From assembly GCA_017616015.1 (NCBI GenBank), contig JAFZYY010000001.1, positions 62,001 to 126,000 of the forward strand: DNA of 64,000 bases. The letters are read 5' to 3'. A program made the position numbers and the translations under genes. The notes under the pieces are model-generated. The model saw only the letters and a list, made by a program, of their open reading frames with translations. It had not been told where the DNA came from and made no database searches. Below are positions 51,394-60,981 of the stretch, in pieces. The stretch is from Alphaproteobacteria bacterium. Lineage in GTDB: Bacteria > Pseudomonadota > Alphaproteobacteria > CAAGCB01 > CAG-977. Numbering within the stretch: position 1 is the stretch's first letter; the number at the start of each line of letters is the position of its first letter.

Positions 51394-51444
51394 TGGTGGG
51401 CACGACAAGGATCGAACTTGTGACCCCTACGATGTCAACGTAAA
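51394..51444 (-). pseudogene. 3' half of tRNA-Val(GAC): attachment site of the island
   Basis: On the minus strand the sequence reads the anticodon loop TTGACAT (51432-51438, anticodon GAC at 51434-51436), its 3' stem CGTAG, the variable loop, a perfect T arm ACAAG-TTCGATC-CTTGT, the acceptor 3' strand CGTGCCC, A and CCA. The D arm and the acceptor 5' strand (expected GGGCACG) are missing and replaced by AT-rich DNA. This is what remains when an integrase recombines within the anticodon region of a tRNA gene. The integrase gene begins 160 bases away. The reconstituted complete tRNA-Val should lie at the far end of the island, beyond the window. Confidence 0.85.
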
Positions 51445-51607: not shown

Positions 51608-52831
51608 ATGGTTAAAATTTGTAAGTCGTTTATCAACAAGCTTGTTCCAGATGGAAACGAAAAATCATACTTTGATGACGAAGTGTCGGGATTTGGTGTC
51701 AGGGTTCGTAAAACGGCGATGACCTATTTCCTGTATTACAGGAACGATCAGGGCGTCAAAAGACGGCTCACGATTGCCAAAACGACCGAAATAACGCCGG
51801 AGGAAGCCAGGAAAATAGCCGCCGAAAAATTGCTTTTGATCAAGCAGGGAAACGACCCCGCCAGGGATAAAATCGAAAACAGAAACGCAATGACCGTTTC
51901 CGAGCTGTGCGATTTATATTGGGAACAGGGGACGCGGCATAAGAAAGCTTCGACTTTGGCAATAGACCGCGGACGTATAGACAGGCATATCAAGCCTCTG
52001 ATCGGCAATCTGCCCGTCAAGAATTTGAAGCACTCCGATGCCCAGCAATTTTATTTTGATGTCGTTGACGGCAAAACCGCCAAAAAAGTAAAAACGAAAG
52101 CGCGGGGATTGGCAAGAGTGACCGGCGGCGCGGGGTCGGCAAACAGAGTGATCGATCTTTTAAGCGCGATTATGTCGTTTGCGGTCAGAAGGGATCTTCT
52201 TGATAAGAATCCCTGCCACGGCATCGAAAAAATGAAATCGAACACCATTCGGGAGCCGATTCCGGAACCGCGAATGAAGATTCTGGGCGAAATACTGAAA
52301 AAGGAATTTGCGACTCACCCGTTGGAAGTTACGGCTATTCGTTTGTTTGCTCTGACCGGTTGCCGGAAGGGGGAGATACTCGGCTTGACCTGGGACGAAG
52401 TCGCTTTGGACGAACAGGTTTTCCATTTTAGGGATACAAAAACAGGACGGCAAAACCGTGTTTTCGGAAAAGGGGCTTTGTTGGAATTGCAACGAGCGAA
52501 AGAGCTTTTCCACGACGAAAGCGGCAACAACTATGTTTTTCCATCCCGTCTTCACAAAGGAAAGCGATTGGACGATGTCGCGCTGTATATGCAAAAGCTG
52601 TGCGCGGCAAACGAAGGATTCGGAAAATACACGCTTCATCAGTTTCGACACACGTTTGCAACAACGGCGGCAGAAATGCGTTATGCCGACACGACGATCG
52701 CCGGTTTGCTCGGTCATTCTCAACGCGGCGTGACAAGCCGCTATATCCACGCCGTTGACAAGGCTCTGATCGTCGCCGCTGATGATGTCAGTATGAAAAT
52801 CCGCGAATGGTTGGACGGAGAAACGGAATGA
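51608..52831 (+). CDS. Tyrosine integrase (P4-type) of the genomic island
   Basis: 407 residues. The N-terminal Arm-DNA-binding domain (about residues 1-85) has GFGVRVRKTAMTYFLYYRND and a P-E-E-A-R motif. A core-binding SAM-like domain (about 95-205) and the catalytic domain follow. Catalytic residues visible are R in LTGCRKGEIL (about 253), H-x-x-R in LHQFRHTFAT (about 344-347), H in LLGHSQ and the tyrosine in TSRYIHAVDK (about 379). It should catalyse site-specific integration and excision at the adjacent tRNA-Val site. The last 56 bases of the gene recur at 60869-60924. The stop overlaps a tiny ORF (ATGA). Confidence 0.95.
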   Translation: MVKICKSFINKLVPDGNEKSYFDDEVSGFGVRVRKTAMTYFLYYRNDQGVKRRLTIAKTTEITPEEARKIAAEKLLLIKQGNDPARDKIENRNAMTVSELCDLYWEQGTRHKKASTLAIDRGRIDRHIKPLIGNLPVKNLKHSDAQQFYFDVVDGKTAKKVKTKARGLARVTGGAGSANRVIDLLSAIMSFAVRRDLLDKNPCHGIEKMKSNTIREPIPEPRMKILGEILKKEFATHPLEVTAIRLFALTGCRKGEILGLTWDEVALDEQVFHFRDTKTGRQNRVFGKGALLELQRAKELFHDESGNNYVFPSRLHKGKRLDDVALYMQKLCAANEGFGKYTLHQFRHTFATTAAEMRYADTTIAGLLGHSQRGVTSRYIHAVDKALIVAADDVSMKIREWLDGETE

Positions 52832-52898: not shown

Positions 52899-53219
52899 AT
52901 GACGGAAAAATTCATAGAACCGGAAACGGTCGGACAGATGTTGAAAGTGGAATTTCTTGAACCGTTGAAACTGTCGCAAAACGCATTAGCGCAGGCGATC
53001 GGCGTGCCGTCGAACAGAATTAACGGCATTATCAACGGAACAAGAGGAATTACCGCCGATACGGATTTGCGGTTGACGCGTTATTTCGGGCTGACGGAAG
53101 GCTTTTTCCTGCGCTATCAGAACAGGATTGAATTAGTCAAAGCCAAACATAGAATCCACGCTCAACTGGATAAAATCGTCCCGTTCCATCGTCCTGCTTC
53201 TGCGGAAACTTCCGAATAA
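52899..53219 (+). CDS. HigA-family antitoxin / XRE-type regulator without visible toxin
   Basis: 106 residues. The helix-turn-helix region (about residues 14-75) has FLEPLKLSQNALAQAIGVPS, then RINGIINGTRGITADTDLRL and YFGLTEGFFLRYQ, which match the HigA/VapI antidote family. HigA normally neutralises the RNase HigB encoded just upstream and represses the pair; here only 67 bases separate it from the integrase gene, so no full toxin is present. It may now act as a stand-alone repressor. AAGGAC precedes the ATG, and the AT-rich TATATATTATA just upstream could hold a -10. Absent from the second copy of this repeat region near 60929. Confidence 0.8.
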   Translation: MTEKFIEPETVGQMLKVEFLEPLKLSQNALAQAIGVPSNRINGIINGTRGITADTDLRLTRYFGLTEGFFLRYQNRIELVKAKHRIHAQLDKIVPFHRPASAETSE

Positions 53220-53459: not shown

Positions 53460-53602
53460 AGCGGTAAAAAGTTCGGAGAAAAGTTCGGAGAAAAGTTCGG
53501 AGAAAAAGTTCGGAGAAAACGGGAAAAACTAGGGAGAAAGCCAGGGAGAAAACGGGAAAAACTAGGGAGAAAACTAGGGAGAAAACTAGGGAGAAAAACT
53601 GG
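53460..53602 (+). pseudogene. 12-bp tandem repeats, remnant of an SSEK/TREK-repeat gene tail
   Basis: Three perfect units of AGTTCGGAGAAA (53470-53505), then a 1-base shift, one more unit, and a run of related GAGAAAACTAGG units. In the right frames they read SSEK repeats and then TREK/GKTREK repeats. The same AGTTCGGAGAAA unit encodes the SSEK repeats of the gene at 61198-62589. As that gene follows the other copy of the 201-bp repeat, this is most likely the tail of a lost homologue, now broken by a frameshift. Confidence 0.65.
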
Positions 53603-53680
53603 TTATTACACATCGAAAAAATGTTAATAGCGGTTCCCCTTGACTTCGGAAAACAAAATGATAATATCTTACTTGAACGT

Positions 53681-53731
53681 ACCCCCTCCACCTAGACCGG
53701 CTTCGTCCGGAAGATGTGAAAATGAGGGGGT
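53681..53731 (+). ncRNA. Candidate structured RNA element upstream of Abi_2
   Basis: ACCCCCTC (53681-53688) pairs perfectly with GAGGGGGT (53724-53731). Inside, CAC/GTG (53689-53691 and 53716-53718) and CCGG-CTTCGT-CCGG (53697-53710) form further pairs, giving a compact, interrupted hairpin. It ends 22 bases before the Abi_2 ATG and has no strong T run after it. This could be a regulatory leader, or an RNA antitoxin as found with some toxins. I base this on folding by eye only. Confidence 0.45.
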
Positions 53732-53753
53732 CAATTTTATCTAAGGTTTTTCT

Positions 53754-54725
53754 ATGACGCTCAGTAAACCGCCTCTTTCCATTGGAGAACAGCTTTCCCT
53801 GTTAAAGCAAAGAAGAATGAGTATCAGCAACGATCTTTTTGCAAAGGATTGTTTGAAGAATATCGGATATTACCGTTTGTCCGGATATTGGTATAAGTTC
53901 CAAGATAAAAGTCAGCCGGACGAAAGATTTTTACCGGGCACATCTTTTGAGGAAATTATAGAGCTTTACCGCTTTGATACGAAACTTCGTTCTTTGGTTT
54001 TTGATGCCATTGAAAAAATAGAAATATCCTTTTCAACACATTTGAACAATTATATGTCCTGTTCCTTTGGTGCGGATTGGTATATTCGTTCCGAGTTCTT
54101 TGCCGATACGGAACAACACGCTAAATTGATTAAGGATATTTCCTACTGGATCGATAAGAATAGAGATAAATTGCCGGTTAAATCATATCGGATAAAACAT
54201 CCAGACGATGAATGCTTGCCTTTTTGGATTGTGGCTTTGGTTATTCCGTTGGGAACATTGTCAAAGCTGTTCGGCTTATTAAAAGAATGCCATCAAAAAG
54301 AAGTGGCTAAACAATTTGAAATGACGGGAAGATTTTTGGTATCCTGTATGCGTTCGTTGACGACGGTTCGGAATAACTGCGCCCATTATAACCGCTTGTG
54401 GGATTTCAGATTGCCTCTTAGAGCGTTGCGCGTTAAAAATCCGACGAAACTTTCCCGATATAACTATACAGAGCTGACAGAAAAAAACGATCAGGATTTC
54501 TTCGCGCCGTTTTATATCATCAGTCTTTTCCTGTGTGTGATTTCACCGGATAGCAAGTTTTGTTCTTTGACAAGAGATTTAATCGGTCGCTATATCGAAA
54601 AAACAAATTCAAAGCTGACATACGGTAAAATGGGCTTTCCGCCTGACTGGGAAAGACTGCCGCTGTTTGAAAGAATGCTGAAAAACGAAAACAAGATGGT
54701 TCGTGTTGGAACGGACAAGAGCTGA
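53754..54725 (+). CDS. Abi_2-family abortive infection protein (AbiD/AbiF-like)
   Basis: 323 residues. The N-terminus KPPLSIGEQLSLLKQRRMSI and IGYYRLSGYWYKFQ are characteristic of the Abi_2 family. The HEPN ribonuclease motif R-x4-H is present as RNNCAHYNRLWD (R206 to H211), preceded by a helical region. These proteins stop phage growth by damaging RNA in infected cells. TAAGG lies 9 bases before the start. It is preceded by the structured element at 53681-53731 and followed by a kinase gene 27 bases later. Expression control may involve the structured element. Confidence 0.9.
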   Translation: MTLSKPPLSIGEQLSLLKQRRMSISNDLFAKDCLKNIGYYRLSGYWYKFQDKSQPDERFLPGTSFEEIIELYRFDTKLRSLVFDAIEKIEISFSTHLNNYMSCSFGADWYIRSEFFADTEQHAKLIKDISYWIDKNRDKLPVKSYRIKHPDDECLPFWIVALVIPLGTLSKLFGLLKECHQKEVAKQFEMTGRFLVSCMRSLTTVRNNCAHYNRLWDFRLPLRALRVKNPTKLSRYNYTELTEKNDQDFFAPFYIISLFLCVISPDSKFCSLTRDLIGRYIEKTNSKLTYGKMGFPPDWERLPLFERMLKNENKMVRVGTDKS

Positions 54726-54752: not shown

Positions 54753-55931
54753 ATGAGCAGCTTTGAAAATGTCATATATAGCATATCGAAAAAATATGAA
54801 GGTCAGATTGATAAAACATATGCTGAATTATACCAGGAATTTAATGACGAGAATATCATAAATCTTCTTTCATTGCTTCACGGACAGTTAGTTGAATGTT
54901 TTGAAGTAATGAATCAAAGATTACCAACAGAAGAATATGATGTGCATTATCGTGCGGGAGATAGTCGTCAACTGTTATTAGCAATAAAATCCATCAGAAC
55001 ATTAAAAGGGGCGACAATAAATACAGAATATGATTTTGATATTGAAAAGTATTATTCTGATTTGTTGGAAAAATGTATGACTTTTTTAAGTGATTTAGGC
55101 GGCAGTTCGATTCCTCCACATATGGATAAAATTGATATTTTTTATAAGGATAAGATTTTTATAAAAAAAGATTGTGTATGTATAGATCGTCCTGCTTTAA
55201 GTCAGAACTTTCAAATTCAACAAATCGGAAGCGGTTCTTACGCGACCGTTTTTTCATACGAAGATTCTTTTTATAACAGGAAATTCGCTATAAAACGGGC
55301 GAAAAAAGAACTTAACGATAAAGAACTTGAACGGTTTAGACGGGAATACGACACCATAAAGCAATTAAATTCACCGTATATTTTAGAAGTTTATAATTAC
55401 GATTCTTCAAAAAACGAATATGTAATGGAATATATGGATTTTACACTCAAAAAATACATAGATAGTCATAATCAGACGATAACTTCTATGGAAAGAAAGT
55501 GTATATGCAATCAAATATTAGAAGCGTTTACATATATTCATTCAAAGGAAATTTTACATAGAGATATTGCGCCTACGAATGTTCTGATCAAAAAATACGA
55601 TGATTCAAGAATTGTCGTTAAGATTTCAGATTTCGGTTTGGTTAAAATACCTGATAGCACTTTAACGGACGCGGAAACAACATTCAAAGGTTCTTATAAC
55701 GATCCTTCTTTGCGAACAGACGGTTTTGATAAATACTCGATGGAACACGAAACTTTTGCTCTCGTTGAATTGCTTATTTTTGTTCTTACAGGAAAAACAT
55801 CCGGCTATCCTTCAATAAAAAACAAAACCATACGTTCTTTCTGGGAAAAAGGCTTGAATCCGGATAAGACAAAAAGATTTCAGAATATAAATGAGATCAA
55901 AATAGCTTTTAAAGCTCTTTGTTTGGATTAA
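54753..55931 (+). CDS. Ser/Thr protein kinase with novel N-terminal domain, possible defence role
   Basis: 392 residues, AT-rich. The N-terminal 150 residues match nothing I recognise and are largely helical. The kinase domain (about 155-390) is complete: glycine loop IGSGSYATVF (158-167), catalytic lysine in KFAIKRAKK, HRDIAPTNV (H269-D271) and DFG (D293-G295). The loop after HRD reads IAPTNV in place of the usual LKPxN, so the catalytic lysine there is missing, as in some protein kinases that remain active. It lies directly after Abi_2, 27 bases apart, and ends at a terminator. Its first 16 codons also occur as a stub at 62591. Substrate unknown. Confidence 0.8.
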   Translation: MSSFENVIYSISKKYEGQIDKTYAELYQEFNDENIINLLSLLHGQLVECFEVMNQRLPTEEYDVHYRAGDSRQLLLAIKSIRTLKGATINTEYDFDIEKYYSDLLEKCMTFLSDLGGSSIPPHMDKIDIFYKDKIFIKKDCVCIDRPALSQNFQIQQIGSGSYATVFSYEDSFYNRKFAIKRAKKELNDKELERFRREYDTIKQLNSPYILEVYNYDSSKNEYVMEYMDFTLKKYIDSHNQTITSMERKCICNQILEAFTYIHSKEILHRDIAPTNVLIKKYDDSRIVVKISDFGLVKIPDSTLTDAETTFKGSYNDPSLRTDGFDKYSMEHETFALVELLIFVLTGKTSGYPSIKNKTIRSFWEKGLNPDKTKRFQNINEIKIAFKALCLD

Positions 55932-56163: not shown

Positions 56164-58230
56164 CTATGCTTCTATTAAGTCTTCAATGAATTCCGATCCG
56201 GGGGAGATGCCTGTAATAAAAAGGGCATCTCTGGCGCGTGTGCACGCCACATAAAGCAGATACCGTTCCGTATTATAGACTTCTGCCAAATCGGATTCTT
56301 CCGTCACGTTTTCGATACGGTCAAGAGACGGAATAACGTCTTCATCACAAGACATAACAATAACAGCTTTGAACTCCAGTCCCTTTGCCTGATGCATTGT
56401 TCCGATAATTATACATCCTTCTTTCGGATCCATAAAATCGTCGATACAATCGCAACTTTCCCCGCTAAATTTCACCGCCGCGTTTGCTTGTTCCAGTTCT
56501 GCGGCAGAACGAACAAAAATACCGATTTCGTTTTGTTGTATTCCGCGTTTAATCCATTCGGTTATTTTTGAACTGACGGCAGAGATTTCATCTTCTTTTG
56601 TCGCAAAAAGCTGAATCTGCGGCGTTGGGCCGTCAAAGATTGAAATGGTGCCCTTTCTTGTTTCAATATTTCCGTCAACGTCTGATATTTCATTGGGAAG
56701 AAGACGATCAGCCTGCAATCTGATTTGATGAGATGTTCGATAATTGATTTTAAGCGTTGATGAACGTCCTTGAATGCTGATCCCTAATTGTTTCCATGAA
56801 AAAGGCGGTTGAAAGATACGTTGTCCTATATCTCCCGCAAAGAATAAACTGTCCGGCCTGTTCTTTCCTAATGCAGACAAGAATTTGAGTTCGGGAATGC
56901 TTAAATCTTGGGCTTCATCGACAACTGCAAAATCAACGGGAGAAGTTTTTATTTGATTTAAGAGGGCAAAATCCTTTTCATAAACTTCCGAAACAGTCAT
57001 TAAATTCCGATTTGATAATTCCTGTTTAACCAATGTGAAAATTTGCCATAAAACTTTTCTTTGCAGTTCCGGGAGACGTGTTTTTCTGCCTAATCGAACA
57101 ACATCACGATATTCTTCCCATGTTTTTAACCAACGAGCGTCCACGATTTCGTTCCATTCGGACAAGACGAAAACCGGGCTGAACTTATGTCCTTCAACAT
57201 TTTTACAGGCGGATGCGATTATGTTTTTTAAATTTTCATCAGAAACTATATTGGGCTTTTGTCCTAAACGGGCACGGTAAAAATTCAAAGCGTAGCTTTT
57301 CAACGGTTGAATTTCGATTTGTTCCCCGATTTTAGGCGCCCCTTTTAAGAGCCAGCGCAATCGAACACTTAACGCGTTTGCAAGTTGTTTTGTAAATGTT
57401 GTAAGCAAAATCCGGGTATCGGGATTCTTTTTAGCCAAAGCAACCGCCCGATGCAAAGCGACTACCGTTTTGCCGGTTCCTGCCGAACCTGAAACCCGAG
57501 CCGGTCCGGAATAATCTTTTTCGACCAACGCTCTTTGAGCAGGGTGCAGGAAAACGATCCATTTTTCCCACGGGGCGGCGAAAGCCTGTTCCAGTTCATC
57601 CCGGTTATTGATGATTCTGAAGTGTCGTAAAGCGTCCGGATGATTAAACGGATTGACATCGGAGCCGATTGTTTCAGGAAAGTCGGGGGTATTTCCCGTA
57701 GCCAATTCCAACAAAATTTCGCAGGATTCTTGCGGCAGATGATCCGTCAATCTGAACAAGTCTTCTTCATTTTGAACGGCACGCACCATCGGCATGGATT
57801 CAACCGGAATGCCGTATTTAATCAAATCATCATCGGAAACGTGTTCAAACAACGGTTTTTCAACGGGATTTGCGGGGATAAATGTCGGTATTTGACGGAC
57901 AATTTCCTGAATTTCCACAAGTTGAGCCGCACCGGTTTTAGGGTGGATTTCCAATTTACGCCGACGCGCCCATTCATAAGCTTCGTCATGATGACCGACA
58001 TAACAGAGAAGCAAATTATCTGCTGTTTTATGAACGATAATTCGTAAATCGCTGCTGGCTCTGACGGACCAGAAATTGGGATCTTTTGATTTTTCTACTC
58101 TGTGAAAACTGGAACCGTTTCCGGACGGATTGATTTGCAAATCAAAGACCGTTGTTTTGACAAGTTTTTGCTCGTCATTCGTTAAGCGAGCCAAACTGCC
58201 CGTAAAGGTATCGGCAATACGAAATTCCAT
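56164..58230 (-). CDS. RelE-like domain fused to a UvrD-type helicase
   Basis: 688 residues. Residues 1-95 match the RelE/ParE fold: FTGSLARLTNDEQKLVKTTV, then WSVRASSDLRIIVHK and VGHHDEAYEWARRR. A linker leads to a superfamily 1 helicase with Walker A SGSAGTGKTVV (247-257), FAVVDEAQDLS (near 440), GDIGQRIFQPPFSW, NYRTSHQIR and the C-terminal GTMHQAKGLEFKAVIVMSCDE, VACTRARDALFITG. It has no obvious nuclease domain. GAGG precedes the ATG, 30 bases after the methyltransferase stop, so the two are one operon. The toxin-like domain may sense or bind ribosomes or simply dimerise. Confidence 0.85.
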   Translation of the reverse strand: MEFRIADTFTGSLARLTNDEQKLVKTTVFDLQINPSGNGSSFHRVEKSKDPNFWSVRASSDLRIIVHKTADNLLLCYVGHHDEAYEWARRRKLEIHPKTGAAQLVEIQEIVRQIPTFIPANPVEKPLFEHVSDDDLIKYGIPVESMPMVRAVQNEEDLFRLTDHLPQESCEILLELATGNTPDFPETIGSDVNPFNHPDALRHFRIINNRDELEQAFAAPWEKWIVFLHPAQRALVEKDYSGPARVSGSAGTGKTVVALHRAVALAKKNPDTRILLTTFTKQLANALSVRLRWLLKGAPKIGEQIEIQPLKSYALNFYRARLGQKPNIVSDENLKNIIASACKNVEGHKFSPVFVLSEWNEIVDARWLKTWEEYRDVVRLGRKTRLPELQRKVLWQIFTLVKQELSNRNLMTVSEVYEKDFALLNQIKTSPVDFAVVDEAQDLSIPELKFLSALGKNRPDSLFFAGDIGQRIFQPPFSWKQLGISIQGRSSTLKINYRTSHQIRLQADRLLPNEISDVDGNIETRKGTISIFDGPTPQIQLFATKEDEISAVSSKITEWIKRGIQQNEIGIFVRSAAELEQANAAVKFSGESCDCIDDFMDPKEGCIIIGTMHQAKGLEFKAVIVMSCDEDVIPSLDRIENVTEESDLAEVYNTERYLLYVACTRARDALFITGISPGSEFIEDLIEA

Positions 58231-58260
58231 TTAATTACCTCATTTTTTACCAAAGCAGTT

Positions 58261-60981
58261 TTACCCGACCTTAAAGATCTTCAGAACTTCATCGCCCAAA
58301 TGATTGATGACTTTAACGGCGATTCTGCCCGAAGACGGTTTGTCAAACGGACGCGATAAATCGCTATGCAAGGATTCCCAGGCATCTTTATCAATTTCCG
58401 CGTTCAAGGACTTTTTCAAAGCCGAATAGGGATCGTTCGCCCCCAGGAAATAAGCCTGACGGACGAAGAAACTTTCTTCGTTATAATCCGTATCGACAAA
58501 CCAGCACGCGATTTCATCGGGATCGCTGCTTTCTACTATACCTTCATTCGGGCGGAAAACATCTACTCCCCTCAGCTTTACCTGAATCTGATTATTTCCT
58601 GCGTCAACGATTTCTATATCTGGTTCGCCGAAAACAACAAAGAGATTGCCGTTTCCCGTGTTTTTCAATTCTTCCGCCATATGCAGATCGGCATTCATAC
58701 GCGCTTTTAAGACGGGGATTTTTCCTAATTTATTAAATTCGGAGGAAGCCGCGTCAAAATTGAAAGCACAAGCGACCAGAACATCAAAACCTGCGTCCGC
58801 CGCTTCGCGAACGGCGGAAACGAGGTCGGGTCTGGCAACGGTTCCGAATTCCGGACCGATAAAAATAGCGGCTCGGCGTTCCGTTTCGCCTTCCTCATAG
58901 CGACCTTCCGCGCAAATATACGTTCCGGGCCAGGGTGAAACCGACAAAAAGTCGATTTTATCGTCTTTATGCGCTTGCTGAATTCCGGAAACCTTTAATG
59001 TTTCCAGAATCATACTGACGAATTTACCGGTTTCGTTTCCTTCGTCACTTTTATCATACAAAACCGGATTGTCGTCTTCGTCCACGGGGATATAACGATG
59101 CGGAGAAAGGCTTTCCACCGTGAACGGTCCGGCGACGCGGACTTTTTTATTATCGACATACGGACGGTCGTAAAGATATTCAAAATCAGCCTTTGCCGCG
59201 ATGGACGCATCTATTTCTTTTTGACGTTGAACGCGCAGATTCCACCATTCGATCAAGTCTGTAATCGCTTTGTCCTTCCATGATTTATCGGGTTGACGGG
59301 GCAGTTCCCATTCTTCAAACGAATTTCCGGTCAAAGCGTTTATTTCCGCGCGCAACGGTTCCATTTTTTGCTGAAACTTATCATAGATCACATCAATTTC
59401 GGCGTTGTTGGCGATTGATTTTAATGTGATGTGCGGAACACGTTCATAAACAAAACCGTGTCGGATATTGCCCGTTGTCGGTGTTGTTTTAGGGGCGGTA
59501 TGTGTGATTTCCGCCTCTTTTAATTGTCCTTCCCTGCTGTCGGCAAGCAGATAATACGGATATTTTGCCCCCATGATTCTGGCGCGCGCCAAAGCCAAAG
59601 CGACACGGCTGGTATCAATCGTTATCCATCGTCGTCCCCATTGTTCCGCCACATAAGCGGTCGTTCCCGAACCGCACGTCGGATCAAGGACCAAGTCACC
59701 GGGATCTGTTGTCATCAGAATACAACGTCGAATTATGGTAAGTCCAGTTTGAACAACATAAATTTTATCTCCGCCAAATTGATTTTGTCCCAAAGTATCA
59801 TTCCATATATTACTTAAAGGAACCCCCATAAAATCATCAAAATATCGGATATAGCCAAGTTTATTGTTTTTACTAGTTTCAAGTCTTCCTGCTTTTTCAA
59901 GACGAAACATTCCTATTGGAAAACTTGTTTTCCAATGATTTGCATTACCAGGAGAAACTTTATTTCCACGGAACATAAAGTCTTGATTTTCTGAAGACTT
60001 CCCTTGAGATGTTACATTGTCAAGTGCCAGAACACGACAATGTTTTGTTTTTTCGCATCGGCGATCATAATCAAATTTAATATTATAAATACGTTCAAAA
60101 TCACTTATTGAATAACGTTCTCCATTTTCTAATTCTATTTTTGAATAAGCAGAAGAACCTTCTCCTCCAAATACTTTATTTTTTAAAAGTGTTCTCAGCT
60201 TTGCTATTGATTTATCCCTGCAATACCAAATGACATGATTTGTTACGCTACTCAACCCCTCTGAAGAAAAGCCACTTGTTGAAGCGTATGAAATTTGCGC
60301 TTCAAAATTATCTTCTCCGAAAACTTCATCCATTAAGGCACGAACTCTATGGACGTTTTCATCGCCGATTTGAACAAAGATCGATCCGCTTTTCGCCAAA
60401 AGAGAACGCGCGACAATCAGTCGATCGCGTAAGTAGGACAAATATGTGTGTATCCCGTCCCGCCATGTGTCACGGAACGCTTTGACCATTTCCGGTTCGC
60501 GGGTAATGTCTTTCCCGTCCTTGACATTCGTCGTTGTCGTTGACCATTGAAAATTTGAATTGAATTTAATCCCGTAAGGCGGATCAAGATAAATACATTG
60601 AACCTGTCCCTGCATTCCTTCCTTTTCCGCCAAAGACGCCATAACATACAGACTGTCCCCCAGAATCATTCTGTTTTGCCAGTTGCAATCGTGTTGATAA
60701 AATTCCGTTTTTGCGTCTTCGTTCGGTAATCCGTTAAAGTCGGCAAACAAATCAGGGGTAGAGTCTTCTTTGGCGGAAGTTTCTTTCGTTGTTTTACGCA
60801 GATCGTCGATCAATGTTTGCGGTTTGATTTTTTCCTGAACAAACAAAGGCGGAGCAGTCACATCCAGTTGATCGTCGCCGCCGATGATGTCAGTATGAAA
60901 ATCCGCGAATGGTTGGACGGAGAAGAAACAACTTAAAAGATATAAATAATCTATGTATAATTTATTCTTACGGGTGTCCAT
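58261..60981 (-). CDS. Type III-like adenine DNA methyltransferase, with chimeric N-terminus
   Basis: 906 residues as an open frame. The N6-adenine methyltransferase core is complete: RMILGDSLYVMASLA, catalytic DPPY (133-136, YLDPPYGIKF), then the SAM-binding DPGDLVLDPTCGSGTTAYVA near residue 425. A target-recognition region lies between them, and the C-terminal half matches large DNA-methyltransferases of restriction or defence systems (RVAGPFTVESLSPHRY). The first 38 or so residues are translated antisense from the integrase-tail remnant (60869-60924) and the 201-bp repeat, so the original N-terminus was lost and the true start is uncertain. No cognate type III restriction subunit is in the window; the RelE-UvrD protein follows. 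Confidence 0.85.
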   Translation of the reverse strand: MDTRKNKLYIDYLYLLSCFFSVQPFADFHTDIIGGDDQLDVTAPPLFVQEKIKPQTLIDDLRKTTKETSAKEDSTPDLFADFNGLPNEDAKTEFYQHDCNWQNRMILGDSLYVMASLAEKEGMQGQVQCIYLDPPYGIKFNSNFQWSTTTTNVKDGKDITREPEMVKAFRDTWRDGIHTYLSYLRDRLIVARSLLAKSGSIFVQIGDENVHRVRALMDEVFGEDNFEAQISYASTSGFSSEGLSSVTNHVIWYCRDKSIAKLRTLLKNKVFGGEGSSAYSKIELENGERYSISDFERIYNIKFDYDRRCEKTKHCRVLALDNVTSQGKSSENQDFMFRGNKVSPGNANHWKTSFPIGMFRLEKAGRLETSKNNKLGYIRYFDDFMGVPLSNIWNDTLGQNQFGGDKIYVVQTGLTIIRRCILMTTDPGDLVLDPTCGSGTTAYVAEQWGRRWITIDTSRVALALARARIMGAKYPYYLLADSREGQLKEAEITHTAPKTTPTTGNIRHGFVYERVPHITLKSIANNAEIDVIYDKFQQKMEPLRAEINALTGNSFEEWELPRQPDKSWKDKAITDLIEWWNLRVQRQKEIDASIAAKADFEYLYDRPYVDNKKVRVAGPFTVESLSPHRYIPVDEDDNPVLYDKSDEGNETGKFVSMILETLKVSGIQQAHKDDKIDFLSVSPWPGTYICAEGRYEEGETERRAAIFIGPEFGTVARPDLVSAVREAADAGFDVLVACAFNFDAASSEFNKLGKIPVLKARMNADLHMAEELKNTGNGNLFVVFGEPDIEIVDAGNNQIQVKLRGVDVFRPNEGIVESSDPDEIACWFVDTDYNEESFFVRQAYFLGANDPYSALKKSLNAEIDKDAWESLHSDLSRPFDKPSSGRIAVKVINHLGDEVLKIFKVG
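60869..60924 (+). pseudogene. Duplicate of the integrase 3' end
   Basis: This segment matches the last 56 bases of the integrase coding region (52767-52822) with one visible difference, and reads AADDVSMKIREWLDGE. It is followed directly by the second copy of the 201-bp repeat, while in copy 1 the HigA-like gene lies between the two. It overlaps the 5' end of the methyltransferase reading frame on the other strand. Confidence 0.85.

Follow-up and report, generated by a model that had tools for sequence, protein, structure and literature searches.

Cas13 and its guide RNA are proposed to descend from AbiF proteins and their RNAs. In Clostridioides difficile, the RNA RCd22 neutralises AbiFCd both in cis, through premature termination, and in trans, through direct binding, and the toxicity of AbiFCd requires R202 and H207 (PMC12373285). 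For PbAbiF the complex of the protein with its ncRNA is available as 8vz6 (PMC12737573). As the work of Zilberzwige-Tal et al. is summarised in PMC12737573 and PMC12373285, AbiFr is the antitoxin of PbAbiF, it binds each PbAbiF monomer, and its bulge nucleotides inhibit the RNase. We take the abiF-type family to be a structured RNA family, as Rfam already holds in RF03085. Here, we describe an Abi_2 gene with a hairpin directly upstream, found in a 64 kb stretch of DNA (hereafter the window, meaning the whole stretch that was analysed). We put the probability at about 0.83 that this segment is a type III-like toxin–antitoxin module, in which an AbiF HEPN ribonuclease is paired with a divergent abiF RNA as its cognate antitoxin. 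AbiF with an abiF RNA is a kind of system already known; the RNA described here is a divergent variant that lies outside RF03085 by test.

Results

The toxin gene is assigned from its sequence to the Abi_2/AbiF HEPN family, with a predicted toxic RNase activity:

53754–54725, + strand: Abi_2 / AbiD-F HEPN RNase toxin, 323 aa (PF07751, PADLOC AbiD, PDB 8vz6)
54369–54386, + strand: catalytic R-x4-H motif RNNCAH, residues 206–211, with R206 and H211

The protein matches PF07751 with an E-value of 4.2e-51 and 174 bits (cut-off 25.6) over profile positions 2–184 of 184, and PADLOC AbiD with an E-value of 1e-65. A search of the PDB gave 8vz6 as the sole match (E 9e-34), aligned over residues 4–305 with the catalytic R and H in register. 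The initial annotation had read the R-x4-H ribonuclease motif as kept, and rightly so; both residues are invariant in 79/79 full-length proteins, the window protein included. It is the one Abi_2 gene of its own genome. The same annotation saw no protein antitoxin adjoining the gene, which agrees with the nearest upstream gene being an XRE-type HTH gene that ends at 53219 and was not found again at homologous loci within the short flanks available.

Upstream of the toxin gene, the following elements were located:

53640–53667, + strand: candidate promoter TTGACT-16-TAATAT, with TG before the −10 (consensus scan)
53673–53680, + strand: 5′ leader TTGAACGT; its AAC abuts the outer stem, and the majority of homologues are alike (AACAnn/AATAnn)
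53681–53731, + strand: abiF-type RNA element, the proposed RNA antitoxin (fold, R1 match without own training, covariation)
53681–53688, + strand: outer stem, 5′ strand ACCCCCTC (folding; perfect pairing, 8 bp)
53689–53691, + strand: inner stem, 5′ strand CAC, where the majority of homologues have CGC (fold, covariation)
53697–53710, + strand: terminal stem-loop CCGG-CTTCGT-CCGG; the stem of the homologue L067 differs, TCAATC/GATTGA (fold)
53716–53718, + strand: inner stem, 3′ strand GTG (fold, covariation)
53719–53723, + strand: 3′ bulge AAAAT, where canonical abiF RNAs have CACCA/CACCC (homologue comparison)
53724–53731, + strand: outer stem, 3′ strand GAGGGGGT (folding; relative to L067, two pairs altered on both sides)
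53732–53741, + strand: weak U-rich tail CAATTTTATC, a possible partial terminator or attenuator (read from sequence)
53743–53746, + strand: Shine-Dalgarno-like AAGG, 7 nt 5′ of the ATG (read from sequence)

The hairpin is thus closed by an outer stem of 8 bp; five nucleotides bulge on the 3′ side between this and the inner CAC/GUG stem, and at the top is a terminal stem, in which CCGG at 53697–53700 pairs with CCGG at 53707–53710. Coordinates and folding bear out the initial description of a perfect 8-bp outer stem with inner pairs 22 bases 5′ of the Abi_2 gene; the gap between hairpin and ATG (53754) is exactly 22 nt (53732–53753). The candidate promoter predicts a transcription start at about 53674. 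The consensus scan that gave it found three promoters with 1.6 expected, which is weak evidence alone; at the corresponding place, the sequence of L067 reads TTGACT followed by an AT-rich −10 region. A terminator scan called no terminator-like site at the tail CAATTTTATC.

Taken alone, the fold is only mildly unusual and weak evidence, because shuffled sequences and window tiles also reach such shapes. The minimum free energy of −21.9 kcal/mol corresponds to a z-score of −2.4, with 6 of 200 shuffles equally good, and the descriptor score is reached in 7 of 500 shuffles of the surrounding 150 nt and in 26 of 1,704 window tiles of that length. A stricter structural descriptor returned about as many matches as in shuffled DNA. 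Structure-only descriptors were rejected as proof, given that chance yields equally many matches, and the hairpin is judged to be real because of its conservation and covariation in homologues.

For the comparison with homologues, Abi_2 upstream regions were read directly; they came from Bacteroidota and the window's own phylum, and from plasmids of cyanobacteria, Legionella, Ensifer and Novosphingobium. The majority share one hairpin plan: behind an AAC/AAT leader comes an outer stem of 7–8 bp, in some cases with a bulged A; the inner stem is CGC/GCG, about 5 nt (often CACCA) bulge on the 3′ side, and a T-rich tail usually follows. RF03085 recognises 2 of 20 homologous loci at its cut-off, and 15 of 22 genomes at weaker scores. 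The initial annotation had suggested a covariance model from upstream regions of related Abi_2 genes, and we built one (R1), trained on 39 elements with the window element left out. At an E-value of 0.01, R1 matches 64 of 84 Abi_2 loci, almost always immediately upstream of the gene; 39 of the 64 are training members, and the match at L074 lies on the wrong strand and is doubtful. The homologues do covary. With 40 elements aligned on sequence alone, two-sided changes occur at 10 of 10 pairs, and the covariation score is 0.424 against 0.123 for shuffled alignments (0 of 500 shuffles reach it) and 0.05–0.10 for slid versions. Paired cells amount to 93.2% against 77.3% in shuffled alignments, a percentage inflated by the elements having been picked for their hairpin; two-sided changes at fixed columns are not created by such picking.

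Some of the sampled loci are organised differently. A second abiF-type RNA lies 170–240 nt upstream of the first at L085:760-823 and L086:759-821 (both on cyanobacterial plasmids) and at L055:1152-1215, which recalls the two motifs of RCd22. In L030, L031, L033 and L037 (Muribaculaceae and relatives), the region directly upstream holds no abiF-type hairpin, and the antitoxin RNA may be elsewhere or of another type. At L049:1432-1465, L073 and L061 there is a variant whose long outer stem precedes CCUCUGCA...UGUAC or a similar sequence; it lacks the CGC/GCG inner stem and is missed by R1.

Within the window, R1, which had not seen the element, ranks 53673–53745 first, with 23.8 bits and an E-value of 9e-4. 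The alignment spans the full model, inner stem and bulge included, as one motif, and the second-best match in the 64 kb is an ordinary terminator-like hairpin. Across the whole genome, terminator-like hairpins score equally high or higher, up to 26.9 bits, because R1 contains the U-rich tail. Hence, the R1 score alone is not specific genome-wide, and position and homologues must count too; the genome-wide search, swamped by such hairpins, was rejected as proof. An Rfam scan of the window and of the region found no RNA family at the element, and RF03085 (gathering score 37 bits) gave no match at an E-value of 10 in the element's region or in its own genome. The element has the outer stem, the inner stem, the 3′ bulge of about 5 nt and the same-strand position directly upstream of Abi_2 that characterise the abiF-type plan, and it has CAC/GUG and AAAAU in place of the canonical CGC/GCG and CACC-type bulge. 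Since RF03085 does not recognise it, we class the element as a divergent relative and not as a plain match. The initial annotation had mentioned reports of RNAs associated with Abi_2/AbiF genes, and its suspicion of such an RNA restraining the HEPN toxin is supported; the likeness holds for the hairpin, its place and the strong covariation in homologues, and fails for a plain match to RF03085.

The nearest relative found is L067, with 42% protein identity, and its upstream region folds likewise. Its outer stem, ACCCCTCC/GGAGGGGT, differs from that of the window by two pairs swapped between C-G and U-A on both sides; it keeps the CAC/GUG inner stem and the core CACYUAG...GAUGUGAAA, and its terminal stem is wholly replaced yet intact. 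The same plan is seen in the folds of L068 and L003 (z-scores of −4.2 and −4.1). No Rfam match was found in L067, L068 or L003 at an E-value of 5. The bulges read AAAAU in the window, AAAGCCAU in L067, AAUAU in L068 and CAUCA in L003, with the canonical CACC in none; the bulge sequence is also variable in other abiF-type members. These four loci form one protein clade with a support of 99/88, and the RNA class tracks the protein clade, as all four with such an RNA group together. Canonical abiF RNAs occur in two relatives from the same genus and family, L004 and L005, and the presence of both lineages in close hosts suggests that the two AbiF/RNA lineages were acquired separately. It is conceivable, and on balance rather doubtful, that the four loci represent an AbiF clade with an antitoxin RNA class of its own. 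The CACC bulge would have been replaced, by A-rich sequence in three of the four and by CAUCA in L003, the window and L067 would have gained a long terminal hairpin whose YUAG/GAU internal loop is conserved, and the pairs would be mutually specific, orthogonal to canonical abiF RNAs, and different in how the HEPN site is blocked. A wider homologue search (the orders of G441 and G583, and a second class draw) gave none closer than L067, L068 and L003. The core pattern of the window and L067, CCACYTAG...GATGTGAAA, had 54 chance matches in viral contigs; in no case did the contig stretch hold an Abi_2 relative, nor did any match have the outer stem.

The surroundings are probably an integrated, defence-rich island. 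An integrase gene (51608–52831) adjoins a 47-nt stretch (51394–51440, minus strand) that, from its sequence, is probably the 3′ half of a tRNA-Val gene, from T-arm to CCA; ARAGORN listed no tRNA there, and no second copy occurs within the window. This stretch is the likely attachment site of the island. Downstream of abiF, after 27 nt, lies a Ser/Thr protein kinase gene (54753–55931) that resembles phage-defence kinases (PADLOC mad6, Stk2, PD-T4-6), followed at 56164–60981 on the minus strand by genes for a UvrD-like helicase and for a type III restriction methyltransferase (1232 bits with PADLOC MTase_III). The kinase is possibly an operon partner of abiF, here only; it was rejected as a conserved partner. 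Neither the HTH gene nor the kinase was found beside homologues within the short flanks available, and the conserved module therefore appears to be the RNA and the toxin only. Purine-rich tandem repeats (AAAAGTTCGGAG, GGAGAAAACTAG) occupy 53467–53600, past the HTH gene and before the hairpin. Repeats are characteristic of classical type III antitoxins. A different 14-mer array lies upstream of the Abi_2 gene in L070.

Discussion

With the gene family, catalytic motif, RNA architecture, conserved position, covariation and protein-clade clustering observed, the parsimonious reading is that 53674–53745 would be the RNA antitoxin of AbiF, and by homology to described systems an antitoxin role of the hairpin is very probable. 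The promoter at about 53640–53667 would make a short RNA from about 53674, which would fold into the outer stem, the inner stem with its 5-nt 3′ bulge, and the terminal stem. The AbiF HEPN ribonuclease is expected to work as a dimer, to which the RNA would bind, blocking the RNase site at R206/H211. Part of the transcripts would read through into abiF, so that toxin and RNA would share a transcript, and the AAGG at 53743–53746 would serve their translation. Should phage infection or stress lower the level of the unstable RNA, free AbiF would cleave RNA, and growth of the cell would stop. Expression, binding, neutralisation and triggering are taken here from homology to RCd22/AbiFCd and AbiFr/PbAbiF, and the toxin could be inactive or otherwise controlled.

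The alternative that survives best, although improbable, is a purely cis-acting leader or attenuator, which would terminate most transcription or hide the abiF ribosome site, with no protein bound by the RNA. The hairpin does sit in the 5′ leader close to the ATG, with a T-rich tail and Shine-Dalgarno-like motif just after it. Cis attenuation is also reported for RCd22 (PMC12373285), and a structured 5′ UTR is ascribed to L. lactis abiD1 where that paper cites it. However, as a terminator the tail CAATTTTATC is poor, conservation of the inner stem, bulge and AAC leader exceeds what a terminator needs, and RCd22 acts in trans too. Cis and trans roles are compatible. Within the toxin–antitoxin module that we favour, the weak tail makes cis attenuation the less certain of the two.

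It is highly improbable that the antitoxin is instead the XRE-type HTH protein (52899–53219) or the repeats at 53467–53600. Both are found a short distance upstream within the island, but at homologous loci the HTH gene was not found again within the short flanks available and the repeats do not recur, for which reason they were rejected as parts of the module, and the candidate promoter sits between the repeats and the hairpin. Least probable of all is an ordinary intrinsic terminator or chance intergenic hairpin with no tie to abiF, which would fit the unexceptional structural score and the good R1 scores of ordinary terminators genome-wide, but not the lack of a good U-tract, the compensatory changes in a homologue of 42% identity or the position kept upstream of 64 of 84 homologues.

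At this locus and its relatives, the RNA type follows the protein clade, and the RNA can alter bulge and loop while stem architecture and position persist. RF03085 misses part of the family, and a broader model would find more such systems. The diversity of antitoxin RNAs is also relevant to the question of how, in the proposed ancestry of Cas13, an inhibitory RNA turned into a guide.

Comparison with known systems

The classical type III systems ToxIN, CptIN and TenpIN share the logic of an RNA antitoxin upstream of an RNase toxin, whereas their toxin fold and RNA repeats are unrelated (PMC12373285 and established knowledge). PbAbiF–AbiFr (8vz6) is closer, with a toxin that can be aligned over residues 4–305 at an E-value of 9e-34, catalytic R and H included. 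The window bulge is A-rich, and the bulge nucleotides reported as inhibitory in that complex could not be mapped onto the window RNA. RCd22–AbiFCd from Clostridioides difficile prophages (PMC12373285) likewise joins an R-x4-H Abi_2 HEPN toxin to a structured RNA upstream in the same direction, but RCd22 carries two abiF motifs plus a terminator apart from them, whereas the window has one motif and a weak U-rich tail. With the abiF RNA of RF03085, the window element shares the outer and inner stems, the one-sided 3′ bulge of about 5 nt, the AAC leader and the position directly upstream of Abi_2. The canonical RNA has a CGC/GCG inner stem and a CACCN bulge where the window has CAC/GUG and AAAAU, and to this plan the window adds a terminal stem with a CUAGA/AAGAU internal loop.
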